64,000 nt of DNA from Acidimicrobiaceae bacterium (GTDB lineage: Bacteria; Actinomycetota; Acidimicrobiia; Acidimicrobiales; RAAP-2): positions 154,340 to 218,339 of the forward strand of contig PKWY01000027.1 of the NCBI GenBank assembly GCA_003132205.1, in the 5' to 3' direction. The stretch's first letter is position 1. The number at the start of each line of letters is the position of its first letter. The notes under the pieces were generated by a model, which ran no database searches, was not told where the DNA came from, and was given only the letters and a program-made list of their open reading frames with translations. Positions 25,067 to 35,236 of this stretch are shown here, one piece after another. The translations under genes were made by a program, and so were the position numbers.

Positions 25067-25809
25067 GTATCGACACCCACTCAGAGCTCGATGCTCACGG
25101 AGCGCACGACGGAGGGCATCACGAGCCGCCCGAGGTAGTCGACGGACGTCAACGCATGGGCATTTGGCTCTTCATTGGCGGTGACATGATCGGACTCGCC
25201 GCGCTGCTGTTTACCTATCTGTACCTGCGCGGTGTGGATAGCGGTGGCCACTGGATGAGCATGTGGGGTTATACCGGCCACCCATATTCGTACTACTACA
25301 ACATCCTGGACGTGAAGGGTGGTTCGATACCTAATCCGAAGTTGATTCACGTTGGGACGTTGTCCGCCGGGCTGAACTGGTTGGTGACGATCTTGACGGT
25401 GGTCAGCGCGGGAATCGTCTGGGCGGCGGAACGTGGACTTCGCGCCACGAAGAATGCGAAGTCCTATTCGTCGATGGCGGCTGTTGCCACCGCGGTGACG
25501 CTCGTTGCGGTTGTCTTCACGGTCATCCAACTCCGCCACATCCCGCCGATCTTCTCCGCGCACGAAGACAGCCTGACGATGGCCTACACCGCGTACGACT
25601 CGACCATGATGGCCATTGTCGGATCGACCCTGATCCACTTGATCATCCTGGCCTTTCTGGGGCTGGGATTGACGATTCGTTCGGCACGGGGCGCAATCAA
25701 TGGAACCAAGTGGTACCAGGCTCGCCTGGTTCGCTTCTTCTGGGTTTGGGTGGCCGTCGCCAGCGTGATTATCTCCGCGGTAACGACTACAATTAACACA
25801 ATTCATTAA
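25063..25809 (+). CDS. ctaE: Cytochrome c oxidase subunit III
   Basis: A membrane protein of 248 residues with a His/Asp-rich N-terminal tail (HSELDAHGAHDGGHHE), the subunit III opening MGIWLFIGGDMIGLAALLFTYLYLRG, and about five spans. Position after subunits II and I confirms the call. It stabilises subunit I and proton uptake. The His-rich tail could bind metal, but this is speculation. It is the last gene of the oxidase operon. Confidence 0.88.
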   Translation: MSIDTHSELDAHGAHDGGHHEPPEVVDGRQRMGIWLFIGGDMIGLAALLFTYLYLRGVDSGGHWMSMWGYTGHPYSYYYNILDVKGGSIPNPKLIHVGTLSAGLNWLVTILTVVSAGIVWAAERGLRATKNAKSYSSMAAVATAVTLVAVVFTVIQLRHIPPIFSAHEDSLTMAYTAYDSTMMAIVGSTLIHLIILAFLGLGLTIRSARGAINGTKWYQARLVRFFWVWVAVASVIISAVTTTINTIH

Positions 25810-25820
25810 CACCAACAGCT

Positions 25821-25853
25821 CTTCGGGGTACCTCGTGATGGGGTGCCCCGAAG
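25821..25853 (+). terminator. Strong hairpin between ctaE and pyrR
   Basis: A 12-pair stem: CTTCGGGGTACC (25821-25832) against GGTGCCCCGAAG (25842-25853), nine-base loop, one G-U pair. It lies 12 bases after the ctaE stop and just before the PyrR-type hairpin. It most likely ends the oxidase transcript, but no U-run follows, so it could instead be an attenuator element of the pyr leader. Confidence 0.45.
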
Positions 25854-25855
25854 GT

Positions 25856-25892
25856 CTGTCGTGAAGCGGGTCCCGTGAGGCCTGTACGACAG
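25856..25892 (+). promoter_or_regulatory. Probable PyrR-binding RNA hairpin over the pyrR ribosome site
   Basis: The lower stem CTGTCGT (25856-25862) pairs with ACGACAG (25886-25892). A purine-rich bulge GAAG (25863-25866) faces a single U. The upper stem closes on hexaloop CCGUGA (25873-25878). The top, GGUCCCGUGAGGCC at 25869-25882, fits the PyrR-site consensus ARUCCNGNGAGGYU at 12 of 14 positions, and the two misfits form a compensating G-C pair in place of A-U. The lower stem takes in the first two bases of the AGGAG Shine-Dalgarno (25891-25895). Binding of PyrR with UMP should block translation of pyrR and the coupled pyr genes. Confidence 0.75.
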
Positions 25893-25899
25893 GAGACAT

Positions 25900-26469
25900 A
25901 TGAGCAGTAACGACGAACGCCAGACGCGACAGAGCGGTCTGGCGTTTTCTTCAACTAACCAGCTGTTGACGCACGACGACGTCGCGCGCGCCCTGAAGCG
26001 TATGGCGCACGAGATCGTCGAGCGCAATCACTCCGCTGAGAAGGTGTCCATCATCGGGCTCCAGACTGGTGGAGAGCCCTTCGCCAAGAAGTTGGCTGAA
26101 CTGCTCCGCGAGATTTCGGGCTTGAAGGTCCCTTTTGGACTGCTCGACGTCTCCTTCTACCGTGACGACCTCTCGCGCAATCCCGTGCCAAGGTCCGCCG
26201 CCACCACGATCGACCACGACCTGACCGATCGTGCCGTGGTGCTCGTCGACGACGTGCTGTTCACCGGGAGGACCATTCGGGCCGCTCTCAACGCCCTCTC
26301 GGACTGGGGCCGGCCCAGGTCAGTCCAACTCGCGGTGATGATTGACCGAGGTCACCGTGAACTTCCGATTCGTCCCGATTATGTGGGAAAGAACCTGCCG
26401 ACGTCGCTGGATGAGGCGATCACGGCGAATCTGGATGGCGTGTGGATCAGCAAGAGGGAGCCATCGTGA
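25900..26469 (+). CDS. pyrR: PyrR pyrimidine operon regulator / uracil phosphoribosyltransferase
   Basis: A phosphoribosyltransferase-fold protein of 189 residues: the PRPP loop VVLVDDVLFTGRTIRAAL, GLQTGGEPFAKKLAE, and the basic RNA-facing segment VMIDRGHRELPIRPDYVGKNLP are all PyrR-specific. The N-terminal 15 or so residues are an extra tail. It senses UMP/PRPP and binds the hairpin immediately upstream of its own ribosome site, so autoregulation is expected. The stop overlaps the pyrB GTG. Confidence 0.95.
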   Translation: MSSNDERQTRQSGLAFSSTNQLLTHDDVARALKRMAHEIVERNHSAEKVSIIGLQTGGEPFAKKLAELLREISGLKVPFGLLDVSFYRDDLSRNPVPRSAATTIDHDLTDRAVVLVDDVLFTGRTIRAALNALSDWGRPRSVQLAVMIDRGHRELPIRPDYVGKNLPTSLDEAITANLDGVWISKREPS

Positions 26470-27452
26470 TCGGGACGATCAGGGGACAGAATCTCTTGTC
26501 GCTTGACAACGTCTCGCGCGAGGCGATTGTGGAAGTTCTCGATACCGCGGAGTCCTTCGTCGAGGTCAACCGACGCTCCATCAAGAAAGTCCCCGCCCTC
26601 AAGGGGCGCGTTGTTGCTTCGCTCTTCTTCGAGGAGTCGACGAGGACGCGCCTGAGTTTCGAGACCGCCGCGAAGAGGCTCAGCGCCGATGTGCTCTCTC
26701 TCGCGGTGGCTTCGAGCAGCGTGAAGAAGGGCGAGTCGCTGCGCGACACGATCGCGACGATTGATGCTCTCGGCATCGATGCGGTGGTGATGCGTCATCA
26801 GTCGAGCGGAGCCGCACTTCAGGTCAGCAGATACGTTCCGCACGTGCACGTGATCAACGCGGGCGACGGGTTGCACCAGCACCCGACGCAGGGGCTCCTC
26901 GACGCCTTCACCATTCGTCAGGTGCTCGCCGAGAGAATGGGCATCTCGGGCGCGGAGTCGGGGAGCGAACTCTTCAATGGTCTTCGTATCCTGATCGTGG
27001 GTGATATCCGTCACAGCCGAGTCGCCCGAAGTGACATCGCGGCCTACGTGACGCTCGGCGCGCAGGTTCGAGTCGCGGCCCCCGGAACCTTGCTGCCCGC
27101 CGACATCGAGAACTGGCCGGTGACGGTCGTGGACAGTTTTGACGAAGCACTCGAATGGGCTGACGTCGTGGGCCTTCTGCGCTTGCAGCGTGAGCGCGGC
27201 AGCGGCTCGTTCGTGCCGTCCCTCGGGGAGTTCACGCAAACCTTCGGCCTAACTGTCGAAAGGGCGAAGAGACTGCGCCCCTCGACGATCATCATGCACC
27301 CGGGACCAATGAACCGCGGCGTCGAGATCGACTCGCGCGTCGCCGACTTGCCCGCAGCGGTCATCGAACGCCAGGTAGCCAACGGCGTTCCAATTCGCAT
27401 GGCGGTGCTGTACCTGACCGTCGCTGGATCCAAAGAGGAAGTGGTCTCGTGA
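26466..27452 (+). CDS. pyrB: Aspartate carbamoyltransferase catalytic subunit
   Basis: A protein of 328 residues with the carbamoyl-phosphate motif FFEESTRTRLSFE, the HPTQGLLDAFTI block, and a PMNRGVEIDSR aspartate-binding loop. It joins carbamoyl phosphate and aspartate. The GTG at 26466 overlapping the pyrR stop is preferred to an in-frame ATG inside pyrR. No regulatory pyrI follows; pyrC does, as in other actinobacteria. Confidence 0.96.
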   Translation: MIGTIRGQNLLSLDNVSREAIVEVLDTAESFVEVNRRSIKKVPALKGRVVASLFFEESTRTRLSFETAAKRLSADVLSLAVASSSVKKGESLRDTIATIDALGIDAVVMRHQSSGAALQVSRYVPHVHVINAGDGLHQHPTQGLLDAFTIRQVLAERMGISGAESGSELFNGLRILIVGDIRHSRVARSDIAAYVTLGAQVRVAAPGTLLPADIENWPVTVVDSFDEALEWADVVGLLRLQRERGSGSFVPSLGEFTQTFGLTVERAKRLRPSTIIMHPGPMNRGVEIDSRVADLPAAVIERQVANGVPIRMAVLYLTVAGSKEEVVS

Positions 27453-28762
27453 GTTCGATCGTTCTGCGAGGTGGTCTCGTTGTTGGTGAATCGTCAGCTG
27501 AGGTGGGCGACGTGCTGATCGTCGACGGACGGATCGCGGCCGTCGGCGTCGTCGCTGACGCCCCGGGTGACGCCGTCGAAGTCGACGCCTCGGGCTGCTG
27601 GGTCGGACCGGGCCTCGTCGATCTGCACACGCATCTGCGTGAGCCTGGCCGTGAGGAGGCCGAGACAATTGAAAGCGGCGCCGCGGCGGGTGCTCTCGGG
27701 GGATTCACGGCCCTCGTGGCGATGCCCAATACTGAGCCCGCACTTGACAACGTGGCCCTGGTGTCCTACGTGCTTGACCGGGGCGCACGGACACCGCTCG
27801 ATATAGCGGTCGCCGGGGCCATCACCCAGGGTCGGCGCGGCGAGATGCTCGCGCCCCTCGCGGAGATGGCCGAGCTCGGCGTTCGGCTCTTCACTGATGA
27901 CGGCATCGGCGTGCAGGATCCTTCGCTGATGCGTCGGGCCCTCACCTACGCCAAGCCCTTGGGCGTCCGCTTGGCCCAGCACTGCGAGGATGAACTGCTT
28001 GCGGGCGGCGGATCGATGAACGAGGGGGCCGTGAGCAGCCGGCTTGGCCTGGTCGGTCGTCCCGCTCTCGCCGAGGAACTGATGGTTCTTCGCGACATCG
28101 AGCTCGTGCGGCTCACCGGGGGAGCGGTGCACTTCTTGCACCTCTCGACCAAGCGGTCGCTCGACGTGGTGGTCAGCGCGCGCAACGAAGGTCTTCCGGT
28201 CACCTTCGAGGTCGCGCCGCACCATTTCACGCTCGATGAGACGGCGTGCGAACAGTTCGACCCTTTGTTCAAGGTGCACCCGCCGCTTCGTCCGCGACGC
28301 GACGTGGAGGCCCTGCGTAAAGCAATGCGCTCGGGTCTGGTCGACGCGGTGGCGACCGATCACGCTCCGCACGCCCCGGAGCTCAAGGATCTGCCGTTTG
28401 ACGAGGCGCCCGCGGGGATGCTCGGGTTGGAGCACGTGGCGTCGCTCACCTTTGAGGCGCTCGGGTCCGAGGACGCGAGTCCTCTCCGATTCTTTGCGCT
28501 CTTGAGTCGCGGGCCCGCCCGGATAGCGCAGCTTCGCAATTCGGACGTCCGGATCCGTCACAGTGGACACGGCGGCGTGCTGGCGGCGGGCGAAGACGCC
28601 AATCTGGTGGTCTTTGATACCGAGACGCGGTGGACCGCGCGCAGCAGCGAACTGCACAGCCGAGCGACCAACTCCCCCTACGATGGCCGGGAACTGGCCG
28701 GCAAAGTCCGCGCCACGATCGCGAAGGGTCGACTCGTGGTGAACGAAGGGGTGCTGGCATGA
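27449..28762 (+). CDS. pyrC: Dihydroorotase
   Basis: An amidohydrolase of 437 residues, type I. The metal histidines are in DLHTHLREPGREEAETI, others in HFLHLSTKRS and the catalytic ATDHAPHAP. It closes carbamoyl-aspartate to dihydroorotate. GTG start overlapping pyrB and ATGA overlap with carA show tight translational coupling. Confidence 0.95.
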   Translation: MSSIVLRGGLVVGESSAEVGDVLIVDGRIAAVGVVADAPGDAVEVDASGCWVGPGLVDLHTHLREPGREEAETIESGAAAGALGGFTALVAMPNTEPALDNVALVSYVLDRGARTPLDIAVAGAITQGRRGEMLAPLAEMAELGVRLFTDDGIGVQDPSLMRRALTYAKPLGVRLAQHCEDELLAGGGSMNEGAVSSRLGLVGRPALAEELMVLRDIELVRLTGGAVHFLHLSTKRSLDVVVSARNEGLPVTFEVAPHHFTLDETACEQFDPLFKVHPPLRPRRDVEALRKAMRSGLVDAVATDHAPHAPELKDLPFDEAPAGMLGLEHVASLTFEALGSEDASPLRFFALLSRGPARIAQLRNSDVRIRHSGHGGVLAAGEDANLVVFDTETRWTARSSELHSRATNSPYDGRELAGKVRATIAKGRLVVNEGVLA

Positions 28763-29850
28763 CGCGCACTCCCTCAGTGCTGGTGCTCGCCGACGGGACG
28801 ACCTTCGAGGGCTACGCCGCCGGTCACCTGCCCGAAGAAGGGTTCACCACCGGTGAATTCGTGTTCAACACCGCGCTGAGCGGATACCAGGAGGTGATTA
28901 CCGACCCGAGCTACGCCGGTCAGGTCATCGCCTTCACCTATCCGCACATCGGGAACTACGGCGTGACGCCGCTCGACGACGAGGCGCTGCACCCGTGGTG
29001 CCACGGACTCGTCGTGCGCGACCTGTCGCCGGTTGCTTCGAACTGGCGCTCGGTCGGTCCGCTCGAAGGTTTCCTCCGCCAGCACCGGGTCCCCGCGATC
29101 GTCGGCGTCGACACCCGTCGGCTCACCCGCCACCTGCGGGCGCACGGGGCACTGCCCGGAGCCTTCGGGCACGCCAGCCCCGACGTCGTGCGCGACGCCG
29201 CGTCTCGAGCGCGGGGCACCGACGGCACCGACCTGGTGTCCAAGGTTTCGACGAGGAAGTCCTACACCGGCGGCGAGGGTGACCTGCACGTGGTGGCCTT
29301 CGACTACGGCATCAAGACCACTATGGTCGAACAGCTCGGCAGCCGGTTCCGGTTGACCGTCGTTCCTTCCTCCACCTCGGCGCAGGAAGTCCGTGACCTT
29401 CGTCCCGACGGCGTGTTCCTCTCCAACGGGCCGGGTGACCCCGCGGCGCTCGCGGACAACGTGGCGGTGGTCGGCGAGCTCGTCGGCACCGTGCCGATCT
29501 TCGGCATCTGCCTGGGCCATCAACTGCTTTCAACCGCGCTCGGGGGATCCACCTACAAACTGCCCTTCGGCCATCACGGCAGCAACCACCCCGTCCAGGA
29601 CCTCGCCACCGGCCGTATCGAGATCACGGCCCAGAACCACAACTACGCCGTTACGCCCGACTCGCTCGTTCGCGGAGTCGTGAGCCACGTGAATCTGAAT
29701 GACGGAGTAATCGAAGGGGTGTCATCGAAGGCCGACCGCTGCTTCTCGGTGCAGTACCACCCCGAGGCGGGCCCCGGCCCCCACGACGCGCGCTACCTGT
29801 TCGACCGCTTCGAATCGCTGCTTCGAAGCGGCACCCTGGAGAGTATTTGA
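28759..29850 (+). CDS. carA: Carbamoyl-phosphate synthase small subunit
   Basis: A protein of 363 residues. The N-terminal CPSase domain has [21 protein letters not shown]. The C-terminal class I glutaminase has the nucleophile Cys in [16 protein letters not shown] and the His-Glu pair in [11 protein letters not shown]. It supplies ammonia from glutamine to CarB. The start ATG overlaps the pyrC stop, and the stop overlaps the carB ATG. Confidence 0.95.
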
Positions 29851-32800
29851 TGCCCCGTCGCAGCGACATCCACTCGATCATGGTCATCGGATCGGGGCCG
29901 ATCGTGATCGGTCAGGCGTGCGAGTTCGACTACTCGGGCACCCAGGCCTGCCAGGTGCTGCGCAGCCGACGGCTACAAGGTGATCCTCGTCAACTCCAAT
30001 CCCGCGACGATCATGACCGATCCCGCCACGGCGGACGTCACCTACGTCGAGCCACTCGACGCCGATGTCCTCACCGACATCCTGGAGCGCGAGCGCCCCG
30101 ACGCGCTGCTGCCGACCTTGGGCGGCCAGACGGCGCTCAACCTGACGATGGAGCTCGTCCGGCGCGGCGTGACGGACCGGCTCGGTGTGGAGGTGATCGG
30201 CGCTCGACCCGAAGCGATCTCCACCGCCGAGGACCGCGAGCTCTTCAAGGCCGCGATGGCGGACATTGGGCTGGCGGTGCCCGAGTCGGGATTCGCCCGC
30301 GACGTGGACGAGGCCGTTCGAATCGCCGCTCGCATTGGCTGGCCGATCATCATCCGTCCGAGCTTCATCCTCGGCGGCGCCGGCACCGGCATCGCGGACA
30401 ACGAGGCTGACTTTCGCCGGCTCGCCGGCGAGGGAATCGCGGCGTCACCCATCGGCGAGATCCTCGTCGAGAAGTCGATCGCCGGATGGAAAGAGTACGA
30501 GCTGGAGGTCATGCGCGACGTCGCGGACAACTGCGTCGTCATATGCAGCATCGAGAACTTCGATCCCATGGGCGTGCACACTGGCGACTCGATCACCGTG
30601 GCCCCGGCGCAGACCCTTTCCGACGTCGAGTACCAGGAGATGCGCGACGACGCGTTCGCCGTGCTTCGCCGGGTGGGCGTCGAGACCGGAGGATCGAACG
30701 TGCAGTTCGCGGTGAACCCCGACACGGGCGAGCGACTCGTCATCGAGATGAACCCCCGCGTGAGCCGCTCGAGCGCACTGGCATCGAAGGCGACGGGGTT
30801 CCCCATCGCCAAGATCGCCGCCCGTCTGGCCGTGGGCTACACGCTGAACGAGATTGAGAACGACATCACCCGTGTCACGCCGGCCAGTTTCGAGCCGGTC
30901 ATTGACTACGTCGTGACGAAGATCCCCCGCTGGGCCTTCGAGAAGTTGCCGGGCGCCACTCCCGAACTCGGGACCCGCATGCAGTCGGTGGGCGAGGTGA
31001 TGGCCATCGGACGAAACTTCGCCGAGTCGTTGCAGAAGGCGATCCGCTCGCTCGAACAGGGGCGTCTCGGATTCGCGCTGGGCAGTGACTCCGAGTTCCT
31101 GACCCTGGATCTCGAGACGCTCTGGCACCGTTGCGAGGTGGCCACCCCCGAGCGGCTCTTCGCACTGCACGAGGTGATGTGGCGTGGAGCGGGCATCGAC
31201 GAGGTCGTCGAGCGTACCCGGATCGATCGTTGGTTCATCCATCAACTGGCCGAGATAATCGAGCGCGAGCGAGAGTTGCATCACGGTCTGGATCTGTCCT
31301 CGCTCGACCGTCGAGGTTGGCTGCGCTACAAGCAATGGGGATTTTCTGACCCCCAGATCGCCAACCTGACGGGCCGCACGACGAGCGACGTCGCGCGGCT
31401 TCGTCGCGAGGCCGGGGTGCACACCGTCTTCAAGACGGTCGACACGTGCGCGGCCGAGTTCGAAGCGGCGACGCCGTACCACTACAGCACGTATGAGGAC
31501 ACGACCGAGGTCGAGCTTTCACCGCGCGACCGGGTCATCATCCTCGGATCGGGTCCCAACCGGATCGGCCAAGGTATCGAGTTCGACTACTGCTGCGTCC
31601 ACGCGTCGATGGCGTTGCGCGATATGGGTTTCGAAACGGTGATGGTGAACTGCAACCCCGAGACCGTATCGACCGACTACTCGACGTCGGACCGGCTCTA
31701 CTTCGAGCCGCTCACCCCCGAAGACCTCGCTGAGGTCATCCTCGCCGAGCAGGCGGCCTGTACCGACGGCGCGCGCATCGTCGGGGTGGTCGTATCGCTC
31801 GGTGGGCAGACGCCGCTCAAGCTGTCGCACTCGATCGACAGTTCCTTGGTGCTCGGCACGCCGGTCGCGTCGATCGACGCCGCTGAGGACCGCGAGCAGT
31901 GGTCGTCGATCTGCTCCTCGCTCGGACTTCGCCAACCGCCGGGCGACGTCGCGCTCACGTTGAAGCAAGCCAAGGCCATCGTGAAGAAGATCGGCTACCC
32001 GGTACTCGTTCGGCCCAGCTACGTGCTGGGTGGCCGTGCGATGGAGATCGTCTACGACGACACGGCGCTCGAAAGGGTGATGAACGACCTCACGAGCTCG
32101 CACGGTTCGCTCGCCCGGGAGGGAGGGGCCTCCCAGAGCCGCCCCATCCTCCTCGACAGCTTCCTCGAAGACGCCATCGAGGTTGACGTCGACGCGGTGC
32201 GCGACGCCACGGGCGACATCTTCATCGCCGGCATCATGGAGCACGTCGAAGAGGCCGGCGTGCACTCGGGGGACTCGGCGTGCGCCCTGCCTCCCCAGTC
32301 GCTCAGCCGCCGCGTGCTCGACACCCTCGACGACCACACCCGCAAGATCGCCGACGCACTTGGCGTCGTCGGGCTGATCAACGTGCAGTACGCGGTGAAG
32401 GACGAAGAGGTGTTCGTGCTCGAGGCGAACCCCCGCGCCAGCCGCACGGTTCCTTTCGTCGCGAAGGCGACCGGCGTGCAACTGGCTCAAGTGGCCGTGC
32501 GCGTCATGATGGGCCATTCGCTCGGCGAGCTTCGCGCCCAGGACATCGTTCCCGCCACGACCCCCCAGCCCATCTACGTCAGCGTGAAGGAAGCGGTCCT
32601 ACCCTTCAGTCGTTTCCCGGGTGTCGACACCGTGCTCGGGCCCGAGATGCGCTCGACGGGCGAGGTCATGGGCATCGGCGAGAGTTTCGGCATCGCGTTC
32701 GCGAAAGCCCAACTCGCCGCGGGAACGCGACTTCCCGACACCGGCCAGGTCTTCATGTCCCTCGCCGACCGTGACAAGGTGAACGGGCTCAATCTCGCCC

Positions 32801-33144
32801 GCCAGCTCGTTGAGCTCGGTTTCACCATCGCCGCCACCGTCGGCACCGCGGGCTATCTCCGCGCCCATGACGTTCCGGTCGAGACGCTGGTCGGCAAGAT
32901 CGGACTCGCCGACATGGGGGCCGACGCCGTCTCGATGATTCGGTCGGGTGAAGTGCAGCTCGTCGTGAACACCCCGTCGGGAGGAGGGGCCCGCGCTGAC
33001 GGAGCCTCGATTCGAACTACGTGCGTCGTGCACGCGGTGCCGTGCCTGACGACGCTGAGCGCCGGGTTCGCCGCGGCGAAGGGGATTGCCGACACCCGCT
33101 CGCAAGGTTGGCGCGTGCACTCTCTCCAAGAGCTCCACGGGTGA
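29850..33144 (+). CDS. carB: Carbamoyl-phosphate synthase large subunit, apparent 1-base frameshift
   Basis: The N-terminus ([20 protein letters not shown], then [18 protein letters not shown]) is in one frame and the rest (from about [15 protein letters not shown]) in another. One extra C in CAGCCGAC at 29966-29967 accounts for the shift: without it the codons read [10 protein letters not shown], as expected. Downstream all parts are intact: first ATP-grasp half, oligomerisation domain, second half ([19 protein letters not shown]), and the C-terminal MGS regulatory domain, about 1,098 residues in all. Because CarB is needed for both pyrimidines and arginine, a sequencing or assembly error is likelier than a pseudogene. 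Confidence 0.88.
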
Positions 33145-34052
33145 GCGTCGACCTCAGCGCCAAGGTGGGCGAGGTGAGCTTGCGCTCGCTCGTGCTCACC
33201 GCAGCGGGCACCGCCGGCCATGGCGACGAGCTCGCGGGCTACGGGGACCTCGGTGAGCTCGGCGCGGTCGTGACGAAGTCTCTCGCGGCCTTCGCCTGGG
33301 AGGGTAACCCGCCACCACGGATCGCCGCATCGGGCGAGCACATGTTGAACGCGGTGGGCCTCTCGGGACCGGGGGTCGAGGCGTGGCGCGCTGGCTACCT
33401 GCCGGCGTTGCGGGCGCGCGGCGCGACGGTCGTTGGTTCGATCTGGGGCCGCACCGCCGCGGAGTTCGCCGAGGCCGCCGAAGCGATGCGCGGGGCCGAC
33501 GTCGTCGCTCTCGAAGTGAACGCGAGCTGTCCCAACCTCGAAGGCCGCTCGGCCATCTTCGCGCACTCCGTCGACGCGACCAGAGCGGTCGTCGAGGCGT
33601 CACGACGCGCCGATCTTCCGCTTTGGATCAAGTTGAGTCCGAACACCCCCGACCTCGTCGCCATCGCCGGAGCCGCCCTCGAAGCGGGGGCCGCCGCGCT
33701 GGTGCTCGTGAACACCGTGCTCGGCATGACGATCGACATCGAGCGGCGCCGTCCTTCGCTCGGCAACGGTGGCGGGGGAGTCAGCGGGCCGGGCATCCTT
33801 CCCATCGCCCTTCGCGCCGTCTACGAATGCCGTGAGGCGTTCCCGTCGGCGCCCATCGTGGGCGTCGGCGGCATCCAACGCGGCGAGGATGCGATAGCCA
33901 TGGTCATGGCCGGGGCCAACGCGATTGAAGTCGGGACCGCGACCTTCGCCAACCCCCGAGCCCCGTGGATCATCCAACGTGGCGTCGAGAAGTGGCTGCG
34001 CCGCCACGGCGTTAGCGCCATTAGTGAATTGATAGGAGTAGCCCATGGCTGA
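33141..34052 (+). CDS. pyrD: Dihydroorotate dehydrogenase, class 1B-like
   Basis: An FMN TIM-barrel protein of 303 residues. The catalytic loop [12 protein letters not shown] has Cys as base, which marks class 1; membrane-bound class 2 has Ser. [20 protein letters not shown] and [12 protein letters not shown] form the FMN site. It oxidises dihydroorotate to orotate. Class 1B enzymes normally pair with PyrK, which is not in this operon. GTG start at 33141 overlaps the carB stop. Confidence 0.92.
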
Positions 34053-34881
34053 TTCATTCGGCGAGCGACTGCAAGAGCGCATACGGGCTCTCGGGCCACT
34101 GTGCGTTGGCATCGATCCGAGCCGCCAGTTGCTCGAGTCGTGGGGGAGAACGGATTCGGTCGAAGGGCTGGAGTTCTTCTCGCTCGCGGTCCTGGAGGCG
34201 GTGACCGACACCGCCGCGGTCATCAAGCCCCAGGTCGCGTTCTTCGAGCGTTTCGGCTCGGCGGGGTTCCGGGTGCTCGAGCGTTTGATCGCGGATGCGC
34301 GTGACGCGCACGTGATGGTCATCGGTGACGCGAAGCGCGCTGACATCGGATCGACCAACGAAGGTTACGCCGAAGCGTGGCTGCACGACCGCTCCCCACT
34401 GTGCTGCGACGCCGTGACGGTGAATCCGTACCTGGGTTTCGCCGCCCTCGAGCCGCTGCTGAGTGCGGCGTCGGCGACCGGTCGGGGCGTCTTCGTGCTC
34501 TCGGCGACCTCGAACAGTGACGAACGGGCGATCCAGAGTGCTCGTACGAGTGAGAACGAGAGCGTCGAAGAGATGGTGCTGCGCACGGTCGCGGGCTTCA
34601 ACAAGCGCGACGACGGCCTGGGATCAGTGGGCATCGTGCTCGGCGCGACGCGCGACAAGCCCCGCTTTAACCTCGCCTCCTTGGGCGGTCCCTACCTCGT
34701 TCCGGGGGTCGGAATGCAGGGCGCAACCCCCGAAAACGTCGCTCGAATCTTCGATCGCTGCCCCCCGGGGACGGTGCTGGTGAGCGTGAGCAGGGCCATT
34801 CTCCAGGCCGGTCCTGAAAGGGCTGGGCTGCGCGACGCCGCCCAGCGCTGGCGCGACGATCTGAGCGGGGCACTTCTCTAG
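34045..34881 (+). CDS. pyrF: Orotidine 5'-phosphate decarboxylase, type 2
   Basis: A protein of 278 residues with the catalytic Lys-Asp array VIGDAKRADIGSTNEGYAEA, CVGIDPSRQLLESWG at the start and the phosphate-binding FLVPGVGMQGATPENV-like region near the end. Its size and DAKRADIGSTN motif are of the longer type 2 family found in actinobacteria. It makes UMP, the ligand of PyrR. The start overlaps the pyrD end by 8 bases; it is the last pyr gene. Confidence 0.95.
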   Translation: MADSFGERLQERIRALGPLCVGIDPSRQLLESWGRTDSVEGLEFFSLAVLEAVTDTAAVIKPQVAFFERFGSAGFRVLERLIADARDAHVMVIGDAKRADIGSTNEGYAEAWLHDRSPLCCDAVTVNPYLGFAALEPLLSAASATGRGVFVLSATSNSDERAIQSARTSENESVEEMVLRTVAGFNKRDDGLGSVGIVLGATRDKPRFNLASLGGPYLVPGVGMQGATPENVARIFDRCPPGTVLVSVSRAILQAGPERAGLRDAAQRWRDDLSGALL

Positions 34882-34915: not shown

Positions 34916-35236
34916 GTGACCCCAACTCCTCCTTCTCTCTCGCACGAACAGCGGGTTGAGGCGTCGCGCCTCGCGGTAGCGAATCGTCGGCGTCGCGCGG
35001 AAGTGAAGCGTTTGGTCAAGACCGGCGAGCTCTCGCTCGAGGAGACATTCGATCTTGCCAAGCGCGAGGAATGCGTCGCGCAGATGCGCGCGTACGACCT
35101 CATCAGCGCGCTGCCCGCCATTGGCGAGGTCAAGGCCGGTCGCATCATGAAGAACGCGTCGATTGCTCAGACGCGTCGAATCCGAGGCCTGGGACCGAAG
35201 CAACGAGCCGAACTGTTCCGCGCCCTTGTCCGATAA
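34916..35236 (+). CDS. mihF: Integration host factor, actinobacterial type
   Basis: A protein of 106 residues, highly charged, with RRRAEVKRLVKTGELSLEE and the helix-two-turn-helix DNA-binding end ALPAIGEVKAGRIMKNASIAQTRRIRGLGPKQRAELF. This is the mycobacterial/streptomycete IHF (H2TH fold), unrelated to HU-type IHF. It bends and compacts DNA. It lies before gmk as in Mycobacterium, a strong actinobacterial marker. Confidence 0.95.
   Translation: MTPTPPSLSHEQRVEASRLAVANRRRRAEVKRLVKTGELSLEETFDLAKREECVAQMRAYDLISALPAIGEVKAGRIMKNASIAQTRRIRGLGPKQRAELFRALVR

Follow-up and report, generated by a model that had tools for sequence, protein, structure and literature searches.

Regulation by PyrR is a standard example of how a single RNA-binding protein can serve different regulatory outputs. 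In Mycobacterium smegmatis, repression by PyrR at the ribosome-binding site was reportedly shown by Fields and Switzer in 2007, and that system is said to have no terminator. For the pyr cluster of Thermus ZO5, Van de Casteele et al. (1997) reportedly described a PyrR site and a terminator with no antiterminator, and proposed a ribosome-dependent attenuation, with the terminator held open by translation. Outside PyrR systems, translation-linked premature termination with upstream ORFs has been described for riboswitches of Mycobacterium tuberculosis (PMC11260477), and a translating ribosome can, in general, prevent the formation of terminator hairpins, according to PMC5021804. A text search for PyrR together with Acidimicrobi-, within the open-licence literature, returned nothing on the subject. 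The locus described here lies in a window of 64,000 nucleotides (the whole stretch of DNA that was analysed) from an Acidimicrobiaceae bacterium, and its features are collected in Table 1.

Table 1. Features of the pyr locus, with positions counted from the first base of the window.
Feature	Position	Strand	Basis or remark
Strong hairpin just upstream of the PyrR hairpin, behind a ctaE-like gene	25818..25854	+	Fold, -28.3 kcal/mol
Putative PyrR-binding hairpin	25856..25892	+	Fold, 40-genome alignment, covariance model matches; PyrR binding predicted
Shine-Dalgarno AGGAG of pyrR	25891..25895	+	First two to three bases within the lower stem
pyrR (189 aa); the PyrR core follows a translated N-terminal extension of ~20 codons	25900..26469	+	NF003549, 215.7 bits, cut-off 138
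Intrinsic-terminator-like hairpin and U-tract, pyrR codons 7-18	25918..25952	+	Fold, synonymous recoding, covariation; termination predicted
pyrB, aspartate carbamoyltransferase, GTG start	26466..27452	+	4-base overlap with pyrR
pyrC, dihydroorotase	27449..28762	+	4-base overlap with pyrB
carA	28759..29850	+	4-base overlap with pyrC
carB, frame broken near 29960 in this assembly	29850..33144	+	1-base overlap with carA
pyrD, GTG start	33141..34052	+	4-base overlap with carB
pyrF	34045..34881	+	8-base overlap with pyrD

The PyrR hairpin at the head of the pyr operon

The lower stem of the hairpin pairs CTGTCGT (25856-25862) with ACGACAG (25886-25892) over 7 pairs, and the upper stem pairs CGGGTC (25867-25872) with GGCCTG (25879-25884); a purine bulge, GAAG (25863-25866), lies between them, the loop is CCGTGA (25873-25878) and T25885 is unpaired. 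The top of the hairpin agrees with the consensus ARUCCNGNGAGGYU at 12 of 14 positions, both misfits making up one compensated G-C pair. The minimum free energy (MFE) fold (-19.9 kcal/mol, z -2.3) returns the same hairpin, and adds a U25855-G25893 pair as well as a G25866-U25885 pair that closes part of the bulge. The stem includes A25891 and G25892 of the Shine-Dalgarno (SD) sequence wholly and G25893 partly, the probabilities of the AGGAG bases being unpaired are, in order, 0.04, 0.08, 0.41, 0.94 and 0.91, and the pyrR ATG stands at 25900. The preliminary description had read a 37-base hairpin with a 7-pair lower stem, a GAAG bulge and an upper stem closing on CCGUGA, a consensus match with a compensating G-C pair, and a lower stem running into the start of AGGAG, all of which the sequence and the MFE fold bear out. 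The hairpin is thus recognised as the putative PyrR site at the pyrR ribosome-binding site, where binding of PyrR and its dependence on UMP would be expected.

The alignment that the preliminary description had proposed as a check on compensating changes comprised the own genome (an assembly of 2.9 Mb in 60 contigs, window included) and 39 same-order relatives having pyrR and its upstream DNA. The hairpin lies just 5' of pyrR in 40 of these 40 genomes; in one further relative, G022, where only a weak paralogue matches pyrR, no PyrR hairpin was found. Compensatory changes on both sides were found at 7 of the 13 pairs, and the loop is kept throughout the 40 genomes, its bases C, C, G, G and A and the G that follows being invariant. 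Paired cells make up 89.5% of the hairpin in the alignment versus 80.7% in shuffles, and its covariation reaches 0.316 versus 0.170 in shuffled alignments; none of 500 shuffles attains that value, and the slid controls do not exceed 0.111. The outermost pairs, those that cover the SD, are poorly conserved, being unpaired in 15-19 of 39 distinct sequences; because they are missing in about half of the relatives, occlusion of the SD would probably come from bound PyrR and not from SD pairing alone.

A covariance model of 45 positions, trained on the 40 aligned genomes with the window among them, gives a single real match in the own 2.9 Mb genome (E 1.5e-12 for a window that belongs to the training set; next match E 7.5) and scores of up to 64.6 bits in new genomes. 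Within the class, 104 of 198 genomes have a match; within the genus, 93 of 99 do, and within the phylum at least 73 of 396, the last count being a lower bound obtained with strict filters. Among the 122 matches examined, 112 have pyrR directly downstream and three more precede carA. Five weak matches (L083, L190, L192, L194 and L195), with low scores and no pyr gene, were taken as chance and rejected as PyrR elements.

The elements before carA are second copies in three same-order relatives (L207, 4550-4594, minus strand; L074, 1501-1545, plus strand; L161, 2759-2804, minus strand), and those of L207 and L074 have their own TANNNT box just upstream. As in other PyrR systems, then, the element is a regulator that can move among pyr genes. 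The second copy in L207 is accompanied by a leader ORF of 23 codons that recalls the pyrR N-terminus and whose stop overlaps the carA start; it looks like a copy of the pyrR leader.

Upstream of the element, a TANNNT box is found within 20 nt at 171 of 202 loci, and is missing in the genomes that have the strong hairpin at 25818-25854. In relatives this -10-like box lies at -9 to -14 from the element, with a peak 9-12 bases before it, so transcription there probably begins right at the foot of the PyrR hairpin, leaving hardly any 5' leader. In the window, the promoter may be the TACAAT at 25788, or the pyr operon may be read through from the cytochrome oxidase genes. The hairpin at 25818-25854 has no U-tract and is present in part of the window's clade only; it was rejected as a part of the switch, being absent in most relatives.

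Every gene from pyrR to pyrF overlaps its neighbour, as the preliminary description had it, by 4, 4, 4, 1, 4 and 8 bases. The carB gene lies in two frames, an N-terminal stretch and a remainder that starts from about 29960 in another frame, and intact carB frames of about 1098 codons exist in the relatives G017 and G005; the break may be an assembly error or a recent mutation. Beside the operon, an actinobacterial-type integration host factor gene (NF041260) occupies 34916-35233 and is followed by a guanylate-kinase-like ORF, recognised by eye.

A terminator-like hairpin in the first codons of pyrR

The preliminary description had seen no room for the antiterminator/terminator pair of Bacillus, a claim that does not hold for the terminator, since a terminator-like hairpin with a U-tract lies inside the gene. 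It consists of CGCCAGAC (25918-25925), the loop GCGACAGAGCG, GTCTGGCG (25937-25944) and the U-tract TTTTCTTC (25945-25952). Folded within 46 nt it has an energy of -21.8 kcal/mol (z -4.39), and 0 of 200 shuffles are as stable. The same layout recurs with a different sequence in relatives, for example as CGCCCCC-GTTC-GGGGGCG-TTTTTATT and also as CGCCGCCC-GCTCG-GGGCGGCG-TTTTTGTT. Loops of up to 13 bases were permitted in the terminator scan; a simpler scan, with loops of at most 8, missed the hairpin in the ORF.

Terminators were scored with the d'Aubenton-Carafa formula (score d; own implementation, ungapped stems; usual threshold 0), and the first 93 nt of pyrR were recoded synonymously 200 times per locus with the codon usage of that locus. 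The background was given by this recoding and by two control positions further inside each pyrR, with 40 recodings each. A score above 0 was obtained in 42 of 178 homologous loci versus 1.6 expected under synonymous recoding, and p was at most 0.05 in 75 of 178; the loci are related and their counts are not independent trials, although each recoding test is made within one sequence. At the control positions deeper in pyrR, d exceeds 0 in 0 of 178 loci and p is at most 0.05 in 10 and 7.

By lineage, d is above 0 in 5 of 35 loci of the window's clade (expected 0.14; p at most 0.05 in 16 of 35), in 27 of 46 from the rest of the order (expected 1.2) and in 10 of 43 from other orders or classes (expected 0.2). 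Among the 54 loci of the genus that lie beyond the window's clade, none has d above 0; lacking a terminator by that score, they indicate that PyrR control can do without one. The window's own terminator, at d = -4.0 with ungapped stems, falls just under the threshold of 0 and is borderline, despite a strong fold; 2 of 200 recodings score as well.

Covariation was also found in the terminator-like hairpin: among 34 clade members, 6 of its 8 pairs have compensatory changes, and the value of 0.332 compares with 0.165 in shuffles (0 of 500 as high; slid controls at most 0.119). Several of the compensatory changes alter the protein, Arg CGC/CGT in the 5' arm going with Ala GCG/Thr ACG in the 3' arm. 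As far as the sequences tell, the terminator-like hairpin in the ORF is kept beyond the needs of the protein sequence.

Proposed control by PyrR, translation and termination

The locus thus holds two hairpins, both conserved and co-varying, the first overlapping the SD and the second lying within a coding region. The reading that we consider rather probable joins them: UMP-bound PyrR would block initiation on the first ORF, and the terminator in that ORF would then stop the operon. In this model, UMP-bound PyrR would hold the hairpin closed and cover the adjoining SD, such that the 30S subunit could not initiate on pyrR. The first codons then being free of ribosomes, the hairpin at 25918-25944 would form as the polymerase passes, and the terminator with its U-tract would end transcription inside pyrR, turning the whole overlapping operon off. 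At low UMP, a ribosome would start, pass along the terminator's 5' arm and keep the terminator open, in the place of the Bacillus antiterminator. Binding of PyrR, the effect of UMP, termination and its relief by translation are here expected by analogy with PyrR biology and with transcription-translation coupling.

Repression could instead be by translation only, with PyrR covering the ribosome-binding site and the hairpin in pyrR either having no role or affecting early elongation only. This is rather unlikely for the window, and yet it agrees with the overlap between the PyrR hairpin and the SD, and with the retention of the hairpin without the terminator in the remainder of the genus and in another class of the phylum. 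In that class (29 elements) the SD is buried, being itself the 3' arm of the stem, with AAGGAG in 28, and a terminator was found after the element in 0 of 29 loci; since the hairpin is kept without a terminator elsewhere, translation control alone must be workable. What speaks against it here is that the hairpin and U-tract in the ORF are far commoner than synonymous recoding allows and co-vary, and that the leader ORFs found around the terminator in other lineages make little sense if the terminator has no function. The expectation of the preliminary description is thereby divided: the 3' arm of the PyrR hairpin does run into the pyrR SD before an overlapping operon, but control by translation alone does not fit a selected, co-varying terminator-like hairpin, and the mycobacteria-like architecture that it had invoked, with repression at the ribosome-binding site and no terminator, is seen in another class of the phylum and not here.

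The leader ORFs come from 25 late-start loci, in which over 70 nt separate the element from the pyrR start or that start could not be resolved. In nearly all of them an SD-led leader ORF begins right after the PyrR hairpin; where a terminator was detected (18 late-start loci), it lies within the leader ORF in 17 cases, and the ORF mostly ends at or overlaps the pyrR start. One example is L063, with the leader MTAVKCNSLRPAVGAFLLPGFSYEWGR containing GCCCCGCGGTAGGGGC-TTTTTT. Short leader peptides that start from the PyrR hairpin and have an intrinsic terminator inside were noted in L063, L082, L084, L163, L181-L183, L187 and others. Since either pyrR or a leader ORF spans the terminator, the feature shared among these loci is, by their predicted reading frames, translation through the terminator, be it by pyrR or by a leader peptide. 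For the Acidimicrobiia it seems somewhat probable that the attenuator was folded into pyrR, with the first codons encoding both the PyrR N-terminus and an intrinsic terminator and the first ribosome serving as antiterminator, and that lineages moved between in-gene, leader-peptide and terminator-free forms while one PyrR hairpin was kept. If so, one hairpin would have three outputs in one phylum (in-gene terminator, leader-peptide terminator and pure translational repression), related genomes would show how an attenuator changes type, and attenuator searches confined to non-coding leaders would miss some.

An attenuation of the Bacillus type, where PyrR stabilises an anti-antiterminator and the pairing of the leader with the terminator arm would be the antiterminator, is quite improbable. 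In its favour, the 5' arm of the window's leader, GUCUGUCGU, is able to form pairs with the terminator arm at 8 of 9 positions (-11.1 kcal/mol). Over 62 loci, however, the duplexes that the leader forms average -10.94 kcal/mol with the terminator arm of the same genome and -11.00 with the arms of other genomes; own-arm duplexes being no better than swapped-arm duplexes, no specific antiterminator pairing is conserved, and a classical antiterminator, which would also have to displace two stable local hairpins, was rejected on these energies. The other point in its favour comes from Rfam: in L028 (34.1 bits) and L006 (30.1 bits) the PyrR model (RF00515) gives a weak match in which its hairpin and its terminator fall at the places of the two hairpins described here, which is also an independent indication of the terminator. 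In the Rfam covariance search proposed in the preliminary description, 0 of 61 relatives reached the gathering cut-off of 54 bits, with 34.1 bits as the best score. Rfam at the gathering threshold gave no match over the whole window, and with E up to 10 only chance matches over 300 bases. The divergence of the Rfam PyrR model from this group keeps its scores under the cut-off; the element works like RF00515 but is not filed as a member of that family.

It is very improbable that the start of the first ORF is wrong, with pyrR starting past the terminator and the terminator in an untranslated leader. The PyrR core does begin only at about residue 20-23, solved PyrR structures matching the product from residue 19-26 onward. 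Against a later start, an SD-like sequence and a start codon follow right behind the hairpin at 203 of 204 distinct loci with pyrR, the window has no SD-led start behind the terminator, and the extension varies as coding sequence does: for codons 2-6, comparing 35 AERER-type sequences pair by pair gives a proportion of differences of 0.058 at codon position 1, 0.000 at position 2 and 0.577 at position 3. To judge from this coding-type variation, the N-terminal extension of pyrR is translated. If the favoured reading of a ribosome-controlled terminator in pyrR is correct, a variable N-terminal protein extension can serve the RNA rather than the protein. That the first hairpin is a GC-rich palindrome that resembles a PyrR site by chance, for which its place below the Rfam cut-off could be cited, is a virtually negligible prospect, refuted by the alignment; it is kept and co-varies before pyrR across an order and beyond.

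Comparison with described systems

With Bacillus subtilis and RF00515, the locus shares the anatomy of the binding hairpin, the ARUCCNGNGAGGYU top, a downstream terminator and PyrR as the presumptive regulator of its own operon. It differs from them in that no antiterminator was detected, the window is below the Rfam cut-off and the terminator lies inside coding sequence.

As reported for M. smegmatis, the PyrR hairpin is at the 5' end of the pyr operon by the first ribosome-binding site, no antiterminator is seen, and covering of the ribosome-binding site is proposed. Unlike the mycobacterial type, a terminator is conserved in codons 7-18 here, versus 0 of 29 in the sampled class with the buried SD, and the lower stem is CNGUCGU...ACGACNG here versus CCUUU...AAGGAGG in the mycobacterial or buried-SD type.

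The likeness to Thermus is that the terminator lies inside a translated ORF beginning at the PyrR hairpin, and the late-start loci with leader ORFs resemble Thermus in particular; in the window and in most Acidimicrobiia-type relatives, unlike Thermus, the terminator is within the pyrR coding sequence and not in a separate leader, and the decisive ribosome would be that on pyrR. The riboswitches of M. tuberculosis (PMC11260477) are similar in that a leader element controls initiation, short ORFs overlap the next start (AUGA) and termination may occur when translation stops; they differ in having a riboswitch in the place of PyrR, and in that termination there is discussed as Rho-dependent and not intrinsic. 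Read in this company, the locus would be a variant of known PyrR control, in which the new elements appear to be that the terminator forms part of the pyrR coding sequence and that a single hairpin has several outputs within one phylum.
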